Assembly: GCA_025054935.1 (NCBI GenBank)
Contig: JANWZD010000003.1
Span: forward strand, 62,001-126,000
Direction of reading: 5' to 3'
Source: Dehalococcoidia bacterium
GTDB lineage: Bacteria > Chloroflexota > Dehalococcoidia > SpSt-223
DNA length: 64,000 nucleotides
A program made the translations under genes and the position numbers. The notes beneath the pieces are model-generated. The model did not search any database and was not told the DNA's origin. It worked only from the letters and a program-made list of their open reading frames with translations. Position 1 is the first letter of the stretch. Each line of letters begins with the position of its first letter. Shown here piece by piece: positions 41,739 through 50,694 of this stretch.

Positions 41739-41748
41739 TACCATGGTA
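41739..41748. promoter_or_regulatory. Palindrome TACCATGGTA over the carH start
   Basis: Ten-base perfect palindrome covering the predicted transcription start and the ATG; a candidate site for autoregulation. Confidence 0.35.
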
Positions 41749-42675
41749 TCGGCAAGCACGAATGGTCTCCAGCCGCCGCGCGCGCGCACCTTCGGCATCG
41801 GCGAGGCGGTCGAACGCCTTCGTGCCGAGTTTCCCGACGTCAGCATCAGCAGCCTTCGCTTTCTCGAGCGCGAAGGGCTGCTCGGCCCGCGCCGCACCGC
41901 CGGCGGTCACCGGCTCTTTTCCGAGGAAGACCTCGAGCGCGTCCGGCTTATCAAGCGTCAGCAACAGCAGCACCGGTCGCTTGCCGAGATCCGCGAACTG
42001 CTTGCTCGGCGCGACCGCCTCGGCACCCCTGCCGAGCTTGCCGACCGCTTTGTCGACGCCATCGCCGCCCGCGACGTGCGTCGCGCCTACGACTTGATCG
42101 ACGAGGCGGGCCGCGTCGGGGTGTCGATGCGGACGATCTGTCTTGAGATCCTGACCCCGGCGCTGGTGAAGATCGGCGACCTATGGGCACGGGGCGAGCT
42201 TGATGTCGCGCACGAACATCTCGCCAGCGCCGTCGTGCGCGATCTCCTCTCCGCTCTTCGTGCCTATCAGCTGCCGGTTCGGCCGAATGGACGCGTTGCA
42301 GTCGCTGCCTGCGCTGCTCACGAGCGGCACGAGCTTGGGCTGCGCATGGTCGCTGCCCTGCTCGAGCAGGAAGGCTGGACGGTGCACTTCCTCGGCGCCG
42401 ACACTCCGCTGGCCAGCACGCTGCAGATGGTGGCGGACAATCAGGCCGACCTGCTCTTGATCTCGGTCGGCGAGCCGTCCAGCCGGGCATTCGTCGAAGC
42501 GGTCGCCCATGAGATCGCCTCCTGGTCTCCAAGCAAACGGCCAAAACTGGTCATCGGCGGACGCGCCGCCGCTGAGGCCGCGGCCGGCCTGCCGGTCGAC
42601 TTCGTCGCCACCAGCGCCGAGCACCTGCTCGCTTGGCCTGAGCTTCGCGCCTCGCGTCGCCCTCAGCCGTCATAA
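41743..42675 (+). CDS. carH: CarH-type MerR regulator with B12-binding photosensor domain
   Basis: A 310-residue protein. A MerR helix-turn-helix (about 15-85, 'SISSLRFLEREGLLGPRRTA') is followed by a four-helix cap (about 95-175) and a cobalamin-binding Rossmann domain (about 183-300). The cap has the W-x9-E-H motif (Trp148, Glu158, His159) specific to CarH photoreceptors. The B12 domain has E-x-H-x-x-G (Glu194, His196, Gly199), with His196 as the expected cobalt ligand. CarH tetramers with adenosylcobalamin repress carotenoid genes in the dark and fall apart in light. Here the next gene is a carotenoid-type oxidoreductase with zero spacing. LitR is the close alternative name. Confidence 0.88.
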   Translation: MVSASTNGLQPPRARTFGIGEAVERLRAEFPDVSISSLRFLEREGLLGPRRTAGGHRLFSEEDLERVRLIKRQQQQHRSLAEIRELLARRDRLGTPAELADRFVDAIAARDVRRAYDLIDEAGRVGVSMRTICLEILTPALVKIGDLWARGELDVAHEHLASAVVRDLLSALRAYQLPVRPNGRVAVAACAAHERHELGLRMVAALLEQEGWTVHFLGADTPLASTLQMVADNQADLLLISVGEPSSRAFVEAVAHEIASWSPSKRPKLVIGGRAAAEAAAGLPVDFVATSAEHLLAWPELRASRRPQPS

Positions 42676-44271
42676 ATGGCGCGCATCGTTGTCATCGGCG
42701 CCGGGATCGGCGGGCTGACCGCTGCGGCGCTCCTCGCTCGGCGCGGACATGACGTCACCGTCCTCGAGCGCCATGTCGATGCCGGCGGCTGCGCGGCGAC
42801 ATTCTTTTACCAGCGCTTTCTGTTCGATTGCGGGGCGACCCTTGCCGGCGGCTTCCGCGAGGGCGGTCCGCACCAGCAGGTCGCGGCGGCCCTCGCGATC
42901 CGCTGGCCAGTCCGCCCGGTCGACCCCGCGATGATCGTCCAGATCGGTGACGACCGGATCACGCGCTGGGCCGACCCCGCTGCTTGGCGCGACGAGCGGC
43001 GGCGTGCCTTCCCCTCGCCTGCTGCCGAGCGCTTCTGGCAGGCCCAGGAGGCGCTCGCGGATCAGCTCTGGGCGCTGGCGGCGCGGCGCCCGCCTTGGCC
43101 GCCGGCCGGGCTTGCCGACCTGCTCGCCCTTGCAGGCTGTCTTCGCCTTGGCGATGTGCGCCTGCTGCCGGCGCTCGGGCGCACTGCTCGCGAGATGCTT
43201 CCGCCTGACCTGCCCTTGCTTGCGGCGTTTGTCGATGCGCAGCTGCTCATCTCGGCGCAAACGCTCGCCGCGGAGACAGTGTGGCCGTATGCTGCTGTCG
43301 CCCTCGACCTTGCGCGCCAAGGTGTTGTCGAAGTGGAAGGCGGCATCGGCGCTCTTGCCCGCACCGTGGCAGCGGCGCTCCGCCGCGATGGCGGGCGGCT
43401 GTTGACGAAGCGTGAAGTCACGGCGCTCAGTTGGCGCGGCGACCGGGTCGATGGCGTCATCACGCAGCGGGGGGAGCGGTATCCGGCCGAGGTCGTCATC
43501 GCCAATCTGACGCCGTGGAATCTTGTCCAGCTGCTGGGCGACCGCGCGCCAGCGCGCCTGCGCCGGCGCATCGCTGCCCTCCCCGTCGGCTGGGGCGCCT
43601 TCACGCTCTATCTCGGTGTTCCCGCGGACGCAGTTCCGCCCGGCACGCCGACCCATTACCAGCTTGTGGTCGACCCGAGCGCGCCGTTAGGCGAGGGCAA
43701 CAGCCTCTTCATCTCGCTCTCCCCCGAGTGGGACCACAGGCGCGCGCCCGCCGGCTTTCGGACGGTGACGATCTCAACCCACACTGCGGTCGCCCCCTGG
43801 TGGTCGCTTGATCGCGCAGCCTATCTTGAGCGGCGCGCCCGCTACACGGAGCGGCTCCTTGCCGCTGCGGCCCAGGTGCTGCCCGCCGTCCGCGCCGCCA
43901 CCCTCGTCCTGCCGGGCACGCCGCGGACCTTCGAGCGATTCACCCGGCGCTACCGCGGTCTCGTCGGCGGGTTCGGCCAGCGCAGCCTGTGGAGCAGCCT
44001 CTCGCCGCGCACCGGGGTGCCGAACGTAGTGCTTGTCGGCGACTCGATCTTCCCCGGGCAGAGCACGGCCGCGGTCTCACTCGGCGCGCTGCGCGTCGCC
44101 GACCTTGTCGATGCGCTCGTCGGCAGCGCGACCTCGCGGCGCGTTGAGAACCGGCGCCCAGTTCGTTATACTTCTCAGCAGCCTGTGCCTGTAGCTCAGT
44201 GGATAGAGCGCTACCCTGCGGAGGTAGAGGCCGTGGGTTCGACCCCCGCCAGGCACGCCGAGTTTTCTTGA
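42676..44271 (+). CDS. CrtI-like carotenoid desaturase/isomerase-family oxidoreductase
   Basis: A FAD flavoprotein of the phytoene-desaturase superfamily. N-terminal 'VVIGAGIGGLTAAALLARRG' is the dinucleotide motif; 'VLERHVDAGGCA', 'VEGGIGALARTVAAAL' and C-terminal 'VLVGDSIFPGQSTAAVSLGALRVAD' (FAD motif) fit CrtI/CrtO/CrtISO types; the substrate is not evident. It starts 1 bp after the CarH-like gene and should be co-regulated. The frame has no stop where the family ends (about 44130). It runs through the whole tRNA-Arg gene on the same strand and stops at 44269-44271 inside the next promoter, so the last ~45 residues are tRNA-derived read-through. Confidence 0.88.
   Translation: MARIVVIGAGIGGLTAAALLARRGHDVTVLERHVDAGGCAATFFYQRFLFDCGATLAGGFREGGPHQQVAAALAIRWPVRPVDPAMIVQIGDDRITRWADPAAWRDERRRAFPSPAAERFWQAQEALADQLWALAARRPPWPPAGLADLLALAGCLRLGDVRLLPALGRTAREMLPPDLPLLAAFVDAQLLISAQTLAAETVWPYAAVALDLARQGVVEVEGGIGALARTVAAALRRDGGRLLTKREVTALSWRGDRVDGVITQRGERYPAEVVIANLTPWNLVQLLGDRAPARLRRRIAALPVGWGAFTLYLGVPADAVPPGTPTHYQLVVDPSAPLGEGNSLFISLSPEWDHRRAPAGFRTVTISTHTAVAPWWSLDRAAYLERRARYTERLLAAAAQVLPAVRAATLVLPGTPRTFERFTRRYRGLVGGFGQRSLWSSLSPRTGVPNVVLVGDSIFPGQSTAAVSLGALRVADLVDALVGSATSRRVENRRPVRYTSQQPVPVAQWIERYPAEVEAVGSTPARHAEFS
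44144..44172 (+). promoter_or_regulatory. Promoter of tRNA-Arg
   Basis: TTGAGA (44144-44149), 17-nt spacer, TATACT (44167-44172), 12 nt before the mature tRNA end. It lies inside the 3' end of the crtI-like frame. Confidence 0.75.
44185..44257 (+). tRNA. tRNA-Arg, anticodon GCG
   Basis: Complete cloverleaf, 73 nt. Acceptor GTGCCTG/CAGGCAC (7 bp), D stem GCTC/GAGC, anticodon stem CTACC/GGTAG with loop CTGCGGA (anticodon GCG), T stem GTGGG/CCCGC with loop TTCGACC, discriminator G. The next bases are CCG, so the CCA end is not encoded. GCG reads CGC and CGU; bacteria usually use ACG (inosine) for these codons. Confidence 0.95.
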
Positions 44272-44296
44272 CAAGCAGCGCAAAGATCGGTAGGCT
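44268..44296 (+). promoter_or_regulatory. Promoter of the T-box leader / ilv-leu operon
   Basis: TTGACA (44268-44273, consensus), 17-nt spacer, TAGGCT (44291-44296). The TGA of the -35 is also the stop codon of the crtI-like frame. Confidence 0.75.
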
Positions 44297-44520
44297 GCTC
44301 TGCAGTCAGACAATATCTGGCGACGACGGGGAGTAGTACGCGCCCGCGTGGATGCCAGCGAGTTGGGGAGCGGTGCGAGCCCAACCTTCCAGCGGCGCGG
44401 AACTCGCCCCAGAGCTGTTTGTGCCAACCGCGCAACGCTGCGCGTAGTAGTGCAAGCCGGGTGCGCCCGATAGCGCGCAGTGAGTGGGTGCTTCGGCATC
44501 AACAAGGGTGGTACCGCGGG

Positions 44521-44554
44521 AACGCTCCCGTCCCTTTGGACGAGGAGCGTTTTT
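44521..44554 (+). terminator. T-box terminator 1
   Basis: AACGCTCC-CGTCC, CTTT loop, GGACG-A-GGAGCGTT, then TTT. It competes with the first antiterminator. Confidence 0.88.
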
Positions 44555-44602
44555 CGATCGGGCCGCCGCCGAGCGCCAATGAGGGTGGTACCGCGGGGCT
44601 GT

Positions 44603-44635
44603 GCTCTCGTCCCTCCGGGGACGAGAGCTTTTTTT
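44603..44635 (+). terminator. T-box terminator 2
   Basis: GCTCTCGTCCC, TCCG loop, GGGACGAGAGC (11 bp, perfect), then seven T. It is stronger than terminator 1. Confidence 0.92.
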
Positions 44636-44726
44636 CTGTCGCCGGCAACGACGCCGGATCGTTTCCCAACGACGGAACGCACGGAAATAGCGGGCGCACT
44701 CCGCCGCAGGGGCGAGGCGCCACAGC

Positions 44727-44751
44727 CCGGCTGCGCTCCAAGCGCAGCCGG
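44727..44751 (+). promoter_or_regulatory. Hairpin abutting the ilvN ribosome-binding site
   Basis: CCGGCTGCGCT, CCA loop, AGCGCAGCCGG (11 bp, perfect), ending 1 nt before the AAGGAGG of ilvN. It may hold the ribosome-binding site open or protect the 5' end of a processed mRNA. Confidence 0.5.
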
Positions 44752-44766
44752 CAAGGAGGCAGACGC

Positions 44767-46313
<1,547 letters not shown>

Positions 46314-46326
46314 GCAGGAGGGGAAG

Positions 46327-47874
46327 ATGGATCGAGTCTTGATATTCGACACGACGCTGCGCGATGGCGAGCAATCGCCGGGCTGCACGCTCAATGTCGA
46401 GGAGAAGCTGGAGATCGCCCACGCCCTCGCCCGCCTCGGCGTCGACATCATCGAAGGCGGCTTTCCGATCAGCTCGCCGGGCGACTTCGAAGCCGTCCGC
46501 CTGATGGCGGAGCAGATCCGCGATGTCCAGATCTGCGGGCTGGCGCGCGCGCTGCCGGCCGATATCGATCGCGCGGCCGAAGCGCTCAAGTCCGCTGCGA
46601 ACGGCCGGATTCATGTGTTCATCTCTTCCTCCGATATCCATCTGATGCACCAGATGCGTAAGGGGCGAGAGGAGGTCCTCGAGCAGACGCGCGCGATGGT
46701 CCGGCGGGCGCGCAACTACACCGACAACGTCGAGTTCAGCCCCATGGACGCCACCCGCTCTGACCCCGACTATGTCGTCGAACTGCTGAACGTGGCGGTC
46801 GAAGAAGGGGCGACAACACTCAACATCCCGGATACCGTCGGCTACGCCACGCCGGAGGAGTACTTCGCCCTGATCCAGAAAATCATGAACGAGGTCAAGG
46901 GGATCGAGAAGTGCATCGTCAGCACCCACACCCACAACGACCTCGGCCTTGCAGTCGCCAACGCCCTCGCGGGGATCCGGGCGGGAGCGCGTCAGGTCGA
47001 ATGCACCATCAACGGCATCGGCGAGCGGGCTGGCAACGCAGCGCTGGAAGAGATCGTGATGGCGCTGCGGACGCGGCGCGACTTTTACCGCATCGACACC
47101 AAGATCGACACCACCCAGATCTACCGGGTCAGCCGGCTTGTCGCTGACCGCACGGGGATGGTGGTGCAGGCCAACAAGGCGATCGTCGGCCTCAACGCGT
47201 TCCGCCACGAGTCTGGCATCCATCAGGACGGCATCCTGAAGGAGCGCTCGACTTATGAGATTATGGACCCGGCCTCTATCGGCTGGCCGGCAAGCCAGCT
47301 CGTGCTCGGCAAGCACTCCGGCCGCCATGCGCTCAAGCAGCGGCTCCTGGAGCTGGGCTACGAGCTGAGCGAGGAGGACCTGAACCGCACCTTTGTCCGC
47401 TTCAAGGAGCTTGCCGACCAGAAAAAGGAAGTGTCCGACCGTGACCTCGAGGCGCTGGTTGCCGAAGAGCATCGTATCCAGTCGGAGACGTGGAAACTCG
47501 ATCACGTCCAAGTGACGTGCGGCGACCACAGCATCGCGACAGCAACGGTGCGGCTGATCGACCCCGAAGGACGCATGATCACCGACGCGGATACGGGCAC
47601 CGGGCCGGTCGACGCCGTCTACCGCGCTATCAATCGGATCATCGGCGTGCCGAACGTACTCTCAGAGTTTTCCGTCAAGTCGGTGACGGAGGGGATCGAT
47701 GCCATCGGCGAAGTGACCATCCGGATCGACCATGATGGGCAGTCGTACATTGGCCGCGGCGCGAGCACCGATATTATCGTTGCCTCCGCGCGCGCGTATA
47801 TGAACGCGCTCAACCGCCTCTTGTCGAACCGCGAGGTGTCGACGGCGAAGATTGTCCGCACGGTGACCCCGTGA
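46327..47874 (+). CDS. leuA: 2-isopropylmalate synthase
   Basis: A 515-residue enzyme for the first leucine-specific step. The catalytic TIM barrel has '[17 protein letters not shown]', metal-binding HxH in '[16 protein letters not shown]', and '[20 protein letters not shown]'. A linker follows, then a C-terminal LeuA dimer domain (about 390-515, '[20 protein letters not shown]') that gives leucine feedback inhibition. It follows ilvC by 13 bp, with GAGGGG before the ATG, and overlaps leuB by 4 bp (GTGA). Confidence 0.96.
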
Positions 47875-48968
47875 GAGCGACAATCGCCCTCCTGCCAGGT
47901 GACGGCATCGGCCCCGATGTTGTCCGCCAAGCTGTCGCCGCGCTCGACGCGATTGCCTTGCGCTTTGGGCATACGTTTGAGTATCGGACGGCCCTCATCG
48001 GCGGCTGCGCGCTCGACGAGACCGGCAACTCCTTCCCACCGGAGACGGAGCGGATCGTGCTCGAGGCCGATGCTGTGCTCCTCGGCGCGGTTGGCGGGCC
48101 GAAGTGGGACGACCCGAAAGCGGCCGACCGGCCCGAACGAGGGCTGCTCGCCCTGCGCAAAGCGCTTGGGGTGTTTGCCAATATTCGCCCGGTCAAGCCG
48201 CATCCGGTGGTCCGCGAGGCGACCCCGCTCAAGCCGCATCTCTTGGAGGGCGTGGACCTGCTCGTCATCCGCGAATTGCTCGGCGGGTTGTACTTTGGGC
48301 AGCCGAGTGAGCGTCGCGTTGGAGCGGCAGGCCGGGAAGCCGTTGACACGATGTTCTACTCCGAACCCGAGATCGTCCGGATCCTGCGGGTCGGCTTTGA
48401 GCTGGCGCGCTCGCGCAAGAAACGGCTCACTTCGGTCGACAAAGCGAATATTCTGGCGACGTCACGCCTCTGGCGCGAACTGGCAAGCGAACTGGCCGCG
48501 GACTACCCGGACGTAACGCTGGAGCATGTGCTCGTCGATGCGGCGGCGATGTATCTCATCCAGCGTCCCGCTCGCTTCGATGTCATCGTCACCGAGAATA
48601 TGTTCGGCGACATTCTGACCGACGAAGCGTCGGTGCTGGCCGGGTCGATGGGGATGATGCCCTCAGCCAGCCTCGGCGACCGGACCGAGGGCGGCATCCG
48701 GCGCGGATTGTACGAGCCGATCCACGGCTCAGCGCCCGACATCGCCGGCCAGAACAAGGCCAATCCGATCGCCACGATCTTGAGCGCGGCGCTGCTGCTG
48801 CGCTACTCCTTCGGCCTAGAAGCGGAGGCCTGCGCGATCGAAGAGGCGGTTGACCGCGTTCTTGCCGAAGGCGCCCGAACGGCCGACCTGGCCACGCCGG
48901 GCGAGCCCGTGATCGGCACAGACGCCATGGGCGCGCGCATCGCCGAAGCGATTATTCGCGCGCGCTGA
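47871..48968 (+). CDS. leuB: 3-isopropylmalate dehydrogenase
   Basis: A 365-residue beta-decarboxylating dehydrogenase. '[18 protein letters not shown]' opens it, '[13 protein letters not shown]' and 'NIRPVKPHP' are leuB-specific, '[14 protein letters not shown]' is substrate-binding, and the signature '[30 protein letters not shown]' runs through the metal-binding Asp residues. '[13 protein letters not shown]' binds NAD. The GTG start overlaps the leuA stop (GTGA), implying coupling. Genes for the leuCD isomerase are not in the window. Confidence 0.96.
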
Positions 48969-49101: not shown

Positions 49102-50694
49102 ATGAGGGTAGAGATTTACGATACGACGCTGCGGGACGGCGCTCAAATGGAAGGGCTGTCCCTTTCTGTGGCCGATAAGCTCGAAATTGCGCGCCTGCTC
49201 GACGAACTCGGCGTTGATTACATCGAGGGAGGCTGGCCCGGCGCTAACCCGAAGGATACCGAGTTCTTTCAGCGCGCAAAGGCGCTGCCGTTCCAGCACG
49301 CGACGCTCTGCGCGTTCGGGAGCACGCGCCGAGCGGGGGTCCCAGCAGAGCAAGACCCCCAGCTGCGCGCGCTGCTCGATGCAGAGACGCCGGTTGTCAC
49401 GATCGTCGGCAAGTCGTGGGATCTTCACGTCACCGACGTGCTAGAGACGACGCTCGAAGAGAACCTCGCGATGATCCGCGATAGCGTCCGCTATCTGCGG
49501 GAGCAGGGCCGTCGGGTTTTCTATGACGCAGAGCATTTCTTTGACGGCTATCGTGCGAACCCGGAATTCGCCCTTCAGACCATCGCGACCGCTGCTCGCG
49601 CCGGTGCCGAGCGCATCATCCTGTGCGATACCAATGGGGGGAGCCTTCCCGCGTGGATCCGCGAGGTGGTGAGCGCTGTTCGGGCGCGCGTGCCCAACGT
49701 CGCGCTCGGCATCCATACCCACAATGACGGCGACTTAGCGGTGGCGAACAGCCTCGCCGCGGTTGAGGCTGGCGCGATCCAGGTCCAAGGCTGCATCAAC
49801 GGGTACGGCGAGCGTGTGGGGAACGCGAACCTCTGCTCGGTCATTCCGAACTTAGCGCTCAAGCTCGGCTATGAGGTGCTCCGTCCCGGCGCGCTCGAGC
49901 GGCTGACCGAAGTGAGCCATCTCGTCAGCGAGATCGCCAATCTTGCCCCGAATGCGCATCAGCCGTTTGTCGGTCGCAGCGCGTTCGCGCATAAAGGCGG
50001 CTTGCACGTTTCCGCCTTCATGAAGGTGGCGGAGAGCTATCAGCACATCGACCCCGCCGTGGTTGGCAATCGCCCGCGGGTCGTCGTTTCGGAGCTGTCG
50101 GGGCGCGGAAACATTCTCTACAAGCTGCAAGAGCGCGGCTTGGATATCGAGGCGACAAGCGGCGAGGTGCGGCGCATTCTCGAGCGCGTCAAGCAGCTCG
50201 AGCATCAAGGGTTCGAGTTTGAGTCGGCAGAGGCCTCCTTCGAGCTGCTGGTGCGGCGAAGCCGGCCGGGATATCGCGCTCCGTTCGAACTGGTCGACTG
50301 GCTCGTCATCGTCGAGCGCCGCCGGCGCGCGCCCGGCGAGTCCGACGAGGACGGCCTGCTCTCGGAAGCGACCGTAAAGGTGCGGGTCAACGGCGAGTTG
50401 GTCCACACCGCCGCCGAGGGAAATGGGCCGGTAAATGCGCTTGATCAGGCACTTCGCAAAGGACTGACGGCGTTCTACCCCCAGATCGAGCGTATCCGCC
50501 TAGTTGACTATAAAGTGCGGATTCTCGATGGCGGAAGCGGCACGGGCTCGACGGTGCGCGTTCTGATCGAATCGTCCGATGGCCAGCGCGAGTGGCGCAC
50601 TGTCGGCTGCTCGACGAATATCATCGAAGCAAGCTGGCAGGCGCTTGCGGACAGTCTCGAATACTGGCTGACGCTGGACGGGATGGCGGGCTGA
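49102..50694 (+). CDS. cimA: (R)-citramalate synthase
   Basis: A 530-residue LeuA-superfamily enzyme. It condenses pyruvate and acetyl-CoA to citramalate, the threonine-independent entry to isoleucine. 'YDTTLRDGAQMEGLSLSV', 'HTHNDGDLAVANSLAAVEAGA' and 'INGYGERVGNANLCSVIPNLA' are typical of CimA (TIGR00977 type) rather than LeuA. The C-terminal regulatory domain ends 'SWQALADSLEYWL'. ATG 49102 has GGAG about 8 nt upstream. It lies 133 bp after leuB across two hairpins and is probably the last gene of the T-box operon. Confidence 0.94.
   Translation: MRVEIYDTTLRDGAQMEGLSLSVADKLEIARLLDELGVDYIEGGWPGANPKDTEFFQRAKALPFQHATLCAFGSTRRAGVPAEQDPQLRALLDAETPVVTIVGKSWDLHVTDVLETTLEENLAMIRDSVRYLREQGRRVFYDAEHFFDGYRANPEFALQTIATAARAGAERIILCDTNGGSLPAWIREVVSAVRARVPNVALGIHTHNDGDLAVANSLAAVEAGAIQVQGCINGYGERVGNANLCSVIPNLALKLGYEVLRPGALERLTEVSHLVSEIANLAPNAHQPFVGRSAFAHKGGLHVSAFMKVAESYQHIDPAVVGNRPRVVVSELSGRGNILYKLQERGLDIEATSGEVRRILERVKQLEHQGFEFESAEASFELLVRRSRPGYRAPFELVDWLVIVERRRRAPGESDEDGLLSEATVKVRVNGELVHTAAEGNGPVNALDQALRKGLTAFYPQIERIRLVDYKVRILDGGSGTGSTVRVLIESSDGQREWRTVGCSTNIIEASWQALADSLEYWLTLDGMAG

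Follow-up and report, generated by a model that had tools for sequence, protein, structure and literature searches.

The ilv-leu leader of B. subtilis is a transcriptional T-box with a CUC specifier. A T-box class with duplicated terminator-antiterminator elements was reportedly named by Vitreschak et al. in 2008, and we take the layout described here to be that class. The tRNA-charging sensor of a T-box consists of Stem III and the antiterminator, flanked by the RRRxG and AA motifs, and the antiterminator alone binds tRNA poorly (PMC7583486). Partially tandem T-boxes carry one specifier domain followed by at least two antiterminator/terminator units, with a mode of action given as unknown in a 2020 review (PMC7583486). 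Every unit of a fully tandem T-box, as in the trp, ilv and thrS leaders of Bacillota, comes with a separate Stem I and requires a separate tRNA (PMC12452182), and T-boxes placed in series give sharper control (PMC12452182; PMC9413887). The T-box(Leu)/ppGpp tandem riboswitch has two expression platforms per leader, one of them that of a Leu T-box, served by two different sensors (PMC9481103).

The leader that heads ilvN-ilvC-leuA-leuB-cimA in the window, i.e. the whole 64,000-nucleotide stretch of DNA analysed here (source genome of 3.57 Mb in 93 contigs), is a leucine T-box with one Stem I and two antiterminator/terminator modules, and tRNA-dependent antitermination is predicted for it (Table 1). 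It resembles the standard transcriptional T-box (RF00230, e.g. B. subtilis ilv-leu) in Stem I, Stem II, IIA/B, Stem III, antiterminator and terminator as well as in its Leu specifier and branched-chain amino-acid operon, but it has an extra discriminator/terminator module without a Stem I or a Stem III 5' strand of its own. With the fully tandem leaders it has in common serial termination decisions by like-ligand switches, and with the T-box(Leu)/ppGpp riboswitch the two platforms in one leader. The layout is that of the partially tandem T-boxes. What sets this leader apart from their published description is a Stem III strand shared by both modules, which was not found described in the literature searched, Vitreschak et al. 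2008 being outside the reach of that search.

Table 1. Features of the two-module leader and its operon, in positions of the window
Feature	Position	Strand	Evidence
tRNA-Arg(GCG) gene, directly upstream of the leader, not in the switch	44185..44257	+	cmscan RF00005 67.1 bits; aragorn anticodon gcg (L157)
Likely promoter TTGACA, 17 nt, TAGGCT	44268..44296	+	conserved TTGACA-17-TAnnnT in both congeners
Stem I (decoding domain)	44314..44417	+	Rfam T-box alignment
Specifier CUC (Leu)	44403..44405	+	alignment; invariant in congeners; tRNA-Leu(GAG) in genome
Stem II and Stem IIA/B region	44418..44481	+	Rfam alignment; CCGGGTGCGCCCGATAGCGCGC invariant across three species
Purine string GAGUG ahead of Stem III	44482..44486	+	fits RRRxG motif of PMC7583486
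Shared Stem III 5' strand	44487..44497	+	GGUGC 44487-44491 with GCAUC 44496-44500 (module 1); GGUGCUUCGGC with 44568-44577 (module 2)
Antiterminator 1	44504..44536	+	A1 44504-44508/44532-44536, bulge UGGUACC 44509-44515, A2 44516-44520/44527-44531
Terminator 1 and T-run	44520..44554	+	stem 44520-44552, T-run 44550-44554; near-invariant in congeners
Second Stem III 3' strand GCCGAGCGCC	44568..44577	+	pairs with 44487-44497, 10 bp, one bulge; covariation
Conserved AA after Stem III, second copy	44578..44579	+	in nearly all tandem loci
Antiterminator 2	44581..44615	+	A1 44581-44585/44611-44615, bulge UGGUACC 44586-44592, A2 44593-44597/44606-44610
Terminator 2 and T-run	44603..44635	+	stem 44603-44628, perfect 11 bp; T-run 44629-44635
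ilvN, acetolactate synthase small subunit	44767..45300	+	NF008864 188.9 bits, cutoff 119
ilvC, ketol-acid reductoisomerase	45312..46313	+	NF004017 575.7 bits
leuA, 2-isopropylmalate synthase	46327..47874	+	NF002086 804.9 bits
leuB, 3-isopropylmalate dehydrogenase	47871..48968	+	TIGR00169 472.6 bits
cimA, citramalate synthase	49105..50694	+	TIGR00977 771.1 bits

The T-box identity of the leader rests on a single Rfam RF00230 match at 44314-44538, which at 98.8 bits exceeds the gathering score of 93 and spans model positions 1-219, the full model (cmscan). The specifier lies just 3' of GGAA in the Rfam alignment. It is matched by the function of the genes in the operon and by a cognate tRNA-Leu(GAG) encoded elsewhere in the genome than the leader (L177, aragorn); the discriminator base of this tRNA is A, and the UGGU of the T-box bulge, present in both modules, is complementary to the tRNA 3' end. 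The only two copies of GGGTGGTACCGCGG within the window begin at positions 44506 and 44583, a spacing of exactly 77 nt. Only 23 nt separate T-run 1 from the conserved AA ahead of module 2, and a permissive cmscan of 44260-44780 found neither a second T-box nor a second Stem I, so that the leader is partially and not fully tandem. These results bear out the reading made from the sequence alone, which had described one Stem I with a CUC specifier, two copies of the motif 77 nt apart and no room for a second Stem I, and which had proposed the covariance-model search. It had also called both terminators perfect, which holds for terminator 2; the stem of terminator 1 has one bulged A.

Module 1 is complete, reading GAGUG, GGUGC-UUCG-GCAUC and AA in succession. 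Module 2 (44578-44635, counted from its AA) is preceded by a 3' strand, and it has neither a Stem III of its own nor an RRRxG-5' strand. All pairs of both antiterminators are canonical; the fold computation gives -18.3 kcal/mol for antiterminator 1 together with its Stem III and -11.3 kcal/mol for antiterminator 2, compared with -22.6 kcal/mol for terminator 1 and -24.5 kcal/mol for terminator 2 (over 44598-44632). At the level of the fold, antiterminator and terminator are mutually exclusive in each module, competing for 44520-44536 and for 44603-44615. Both modules look functional, since each can form an antiterminator with the UGGUACC bulge and a competing terminator. The predicted RNA start is likely a few nucleotides past 44300, judging from the promoter in Table 1; it should be mentioned that a consensus promoter scanner did not pick up the box at 44268-44296.

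Several observations concern the surroundings of the leader. Directly upstream are a CarH-like regulator (41743-42675) and a carotenoid desaturase-like gene (42676-44268), both below the curated cut-offs. A tRNA gene of unrelated specificity stands directly ahead of three T-boxes in this genus (Arg, Val and one further tRNA; window 44185-44257, L002 1725-1798 and L029 1406-1478). The source genome of the window carries single-module T-boxes ahead of thrS (specifier likely ACC) and of a TrpB-like gene (likely UGG; loci L002 and L004). The ilvB gene lies outside the ilvN operon, behind a separate single-module T-box with the specifier GUC (Val; L003, G000:C3:161945-162188), and therefore different amino acids appear to control the two subunits of acetolactate synthase.

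The two-module layout is present in both sequenced congeners, the MAG Dehalococcoidia bacterium KatS3mg060 (L102) and a Chloroflexi MAG (L065), at loci G002/L006 and G001/L007. Across the congeners GAGGGTGGTACCGCGGG of module 2 and the core of antiterminator 2 are invariant, and the UGGUACC bulge of module 2 is intact in all three species. The stem of terminator 2 shows compensated substitutions among them (CTCTCGTCC/GGACGAGAG, CTCCCGTCC/GGACGGGAG and TGCCCGTCC/GGACGGGCA), and there is little conservation from the end of terminator 2 to ilvN. In G001, GAUGCCUUGG and CCGAGGCAUC form a helix of 10 bp. Both modules of G001 and of G002 contain GGCATCAA, i.e. the second 3' strand resembles the first there.

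A pattern scan of a species-genome collection for two modules spaced too closely for a second Stem I returned 89 stretches; given its spacing limits and exact motifs, this number is a lower bound for the layout and not a prevalence. The layout is known and common, not unique to this genome, so the sequence-only reading overstated its rarity, and the search in related genomes that it had suggested succeeded in both congeners and far beyond. Together with the conservation in the congeners, the scan rules out that module 2 is a chance repeat. The carriers belong to Negativicutes, Clostridia, Bacilli and Chloroflexota as the larger groups, with Veillonella, Megasphaera, Dialister, Pelosinus, Phascolarctobacterium, Clostridium, Paenibacillus, Alicyclobacillus, Acholeplasmataceae and Sumerlaeota among the taxa. 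In the representatives examined the genes 3' of the layout include those for sodium/solute symporters, Asp-tRNA(Asn) ligase, TrpX, SerC, TrpE, TrpD, LysA and DAHP synthase; the Chloroflexota genes are ilvB, ilvD, ilvN and ileS, and a CTC specifier is visible in the other Chloroflexota carriers (ilvB, ilvD and ileS leaders) where the leader is complete. With a looser pattern, 10 of 400 Chloroflexota genomes gave matches with gaps of 75-105, of which one or more (L128) is apparently a coding false match.

Variants of the layout were also noted. Three modules behind one Stem I occur at five loci (L043, L077, L080, L099 and L112), upstream of NSS-type transporters (L043, L077) and of DAHP synthase (L112). 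In the triple-module L043, UCUUCAC stands alike ahead of modules 2 and 3, facing a single GUGAAGA. Module 2 of L053 is without CGTCCC, and its bulge GGGUGG itself seemingly pairs with CCACCC in a different terminator style.

In the tandem loci the 3' strand of module 2 is complementary to the Stem III 5' strand of module 1, and in many cases also to the loop of Stem III. The duplex of the two strands in the window amounts to -17.8 kcal/mol, and the longest such helices reach 14 bp (L093 and L103). Over 44 loci less than 60% identical, which were counted as independent although some relatedness is left, the anchored helix score averages 16.7, compared with 9.75±0.54 when the partners are permuted (0 of 5000 permutations). 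This score peaks at the Stem III register (register 0) and drops on either side. Pairing is weak or out of register at L049, L051, L053 and L098; the automated register assignment is imperfect, and several loci were mis-set. Unanchored duplex energies reached p<=0.05 against shuffles at only 21 of 82 loci, probably due to dominant GC-rich decoys, and the anchored score was used instead. Extension of the helix into the loop gave mixed results, with 0/5000 in one test and a marginal 270/10000 in the other.

The 3' strands of modules 1 and 2 are homologous, and part of the complementarity is inherited. Of the positions at which they differ, 35 of 83 still pair, compared with 20.3 expected (p=3e-4), and among 13 Chloroflexota 21 of 27 changes keep the pairing, compared with 10.3 expected (p=3e-5). 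Tested in trans, the second strand pairs better with the 5' strand and loop than the module-1 strand does at 29 of 43 untied loci, and worse at 14 (sign p=0.016, Wilcoxon p=0.0016), and therefore it is not just a decaying copy. A second strand that is a passive copy of the first is thus not supported. In an ungapped alignment of the 13 Chloroflexota, 92.3% of cells are paired, 13 cells are doubly changed in a compensatory manner versus 4.5±2.3 after shuffling, and covariation is 0.545 versus 0.318±0.049 (0/500). When the partner is shifted by 1-3 columns, the pairing falls to 17-49%, a control that somewhat favours the tested structure, which was proposed after several of these sequences had been inspected. 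A further seven loci from Chloroflexota, not among the 44 and with wider spacing (172 nt between the modules of one of them, L008), six of the seven chosen once the idea had formed, average 20.7 versus 15.2 with swapped partners (exact permutation p=0.006).

The computed energies point in the same direction. The rebuilt Stem III combined with terminator 1 and antiterminator 2 gives -46.4 kcal/mol, versus -40.6 kcal/mol when the original Stem III is kept; these are energies of the RNA alone, with tRNA, kinetics and tertiary contacts ignored. A local Stem III for module 2 could form but would be weak in the window, and it was not adopted. The linker in the three congeners could fold as a weak local hairpin of -4.5 to -6.0 kcal/mol; in the window this hairpin has -6.0 kcal/mol, and the shared duplex computed over that stretch has -16.6 kcal/mol. 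Such a stem is also hard to fit into linkers of 7-12 nt, and 13 of 42 linkers have 15 nt or fewer. The pairing of the module 2 strand with the Stem III 5' strand of module 1 is well supported by comparative sequence evidence. It was absent from the sequence-only reading and is new here.

How two modules would be served by one Stem I can be explained in several ways. Module 2 might, without Stem I, capture only the 3' end of a second uncharged tRNA, so that two tRNAs are needed and the second step is not codon-specific, an option already raised by the sequence-only reading. A tRNA has a single 3' end that cannot fill both bulges simultaneously, and the bulge of module 2 is preserved in all three congeners, as this explanation would expect. 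However, discriminators need Stem III, without which the antiterminator bound tRNA poorly (PMC7583486), and module 2 lacks a good Stem III yet keeps a conserved complement to the upstream strand, with which Stem III would be rebuilt on the module 1 5' strand. A second step that does not select by codon would also react to every uncharged tRNA whose discriminator base is A. We consider this capture quite unlikely. The second module could instead be a recent partial duplication that acts as a back-up terminator only, with its antiterminator and Stem III remnant as relics. The likeness of the two 3' strands in G001 and G002 would agree with such an origin; but a second terminator without a working antiterminator would shut the operon permanently, and conservation across phyla extends to antiterminator 2, the AA and the partner strand of Stem III. 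The differing positions that still pair in Chloroflexota and the majority of untied loci with a better second strand, as counted above, also argue against relics, and the explanation appears unlikely.

A further view takes the shared-strand pairing as a switch between the modules that inactivates module 1, so that only one site is used, e.g. depending on transcription speed. The invading helix often covers the loop, as is typical of one-way displacement, and it exceeds the Stem III of module 1 in length at 39 of 44 loci, where the comparison has a bias in favour of the less constrained search for the shared helix. Since the pairing can form only after terminator 1 has been passed, it cannot alter the first decision, which makes a switch of this kind a rather remote prospect. 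Two independent full T-boxes in tandem are common in Bacillota (PMC12452182); here the missing second Stem I and the 23-nt linker refute that arrangement on sequence grounds, and we give it practically no credence.

We regard as fairly probable that this Leu T-box checks aminoacylation twice in succession with a single decoding domain, by a swap of the Stem III partner strand. We infer this mechanism from the pairing, passive-copy, covariation, extra-locus and energy tests, combined with the published T-box structure. Uncharged tRNA-Leu(GAG) would dock on Stem I at the CUC specifier, and its 3' end would stabilize antiterminator 1, built with Stem III (44487-44491 with 44496-44500), so that the polymerase clears terminator 1. 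After this passage module 1 would be free to fold harmlessly as terminator 1. The newly made strand 44568-44577 could then invade Stem III from its loop and pair with 44487-44497, a displacement of the first 3' strand that would be downhill and possible only once the polymerase is past terminator 1. Stem III would thereby be rebuilt beside antiterminator 2 with terminator 1 looped out, and discriminator 2 would be placed at the distance of discriminator 1 from Stem I. The Stem III 5' strand and the purine string would stay attached to the tRNA-holding Stem I/II, with successive modules donating the 3' strands. Bulge 2 may then receive the 3' end of the same or a fresh tRNA, so that terminator 2 would be avoided. 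With charged tRNA, RNA leaking past terminator 1 would be stopped at terminator 2. Leucine starvation would in this way be confirmed twice before transcription of the operon, with a lower basal level and a steeper response of ilvN-ilvC-leuA-leuB-cimA as the expected outcome. The strand invasion, the hand-off or exchange of tRNA and the regulatory gain are the inferred parts of this scheme.

The sequence-only reading is thus partly supported. Its view that one sensor must clear two termination decisions agrees with the anatomy and the conservation of the leader and fits the published view of serial T-boxes; its option of a second tRNA bound without codon selection is disfavoured.

On the wider proposal we are evenly balanced: that there is a widespread T-box subclass in which a single decoder carries out serial proofreading of tRNA charging, the 3' strand of each added module displacing the previous one by loop invasion, so that discriminator and tRNA 3' end move on to the next module, up to three times. 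Sharing of a Stem III strand would explain how a single tRNA sensor drives several antiterminators, and would offer a workable explanation for a known, so far unexplained T-box class. Sharp predictions for mutants and for compensatory mutants follow from the model, which also suggests a design rule by which expression platforms stacked behind one aptamer may give tighter and steeper RNA switches.
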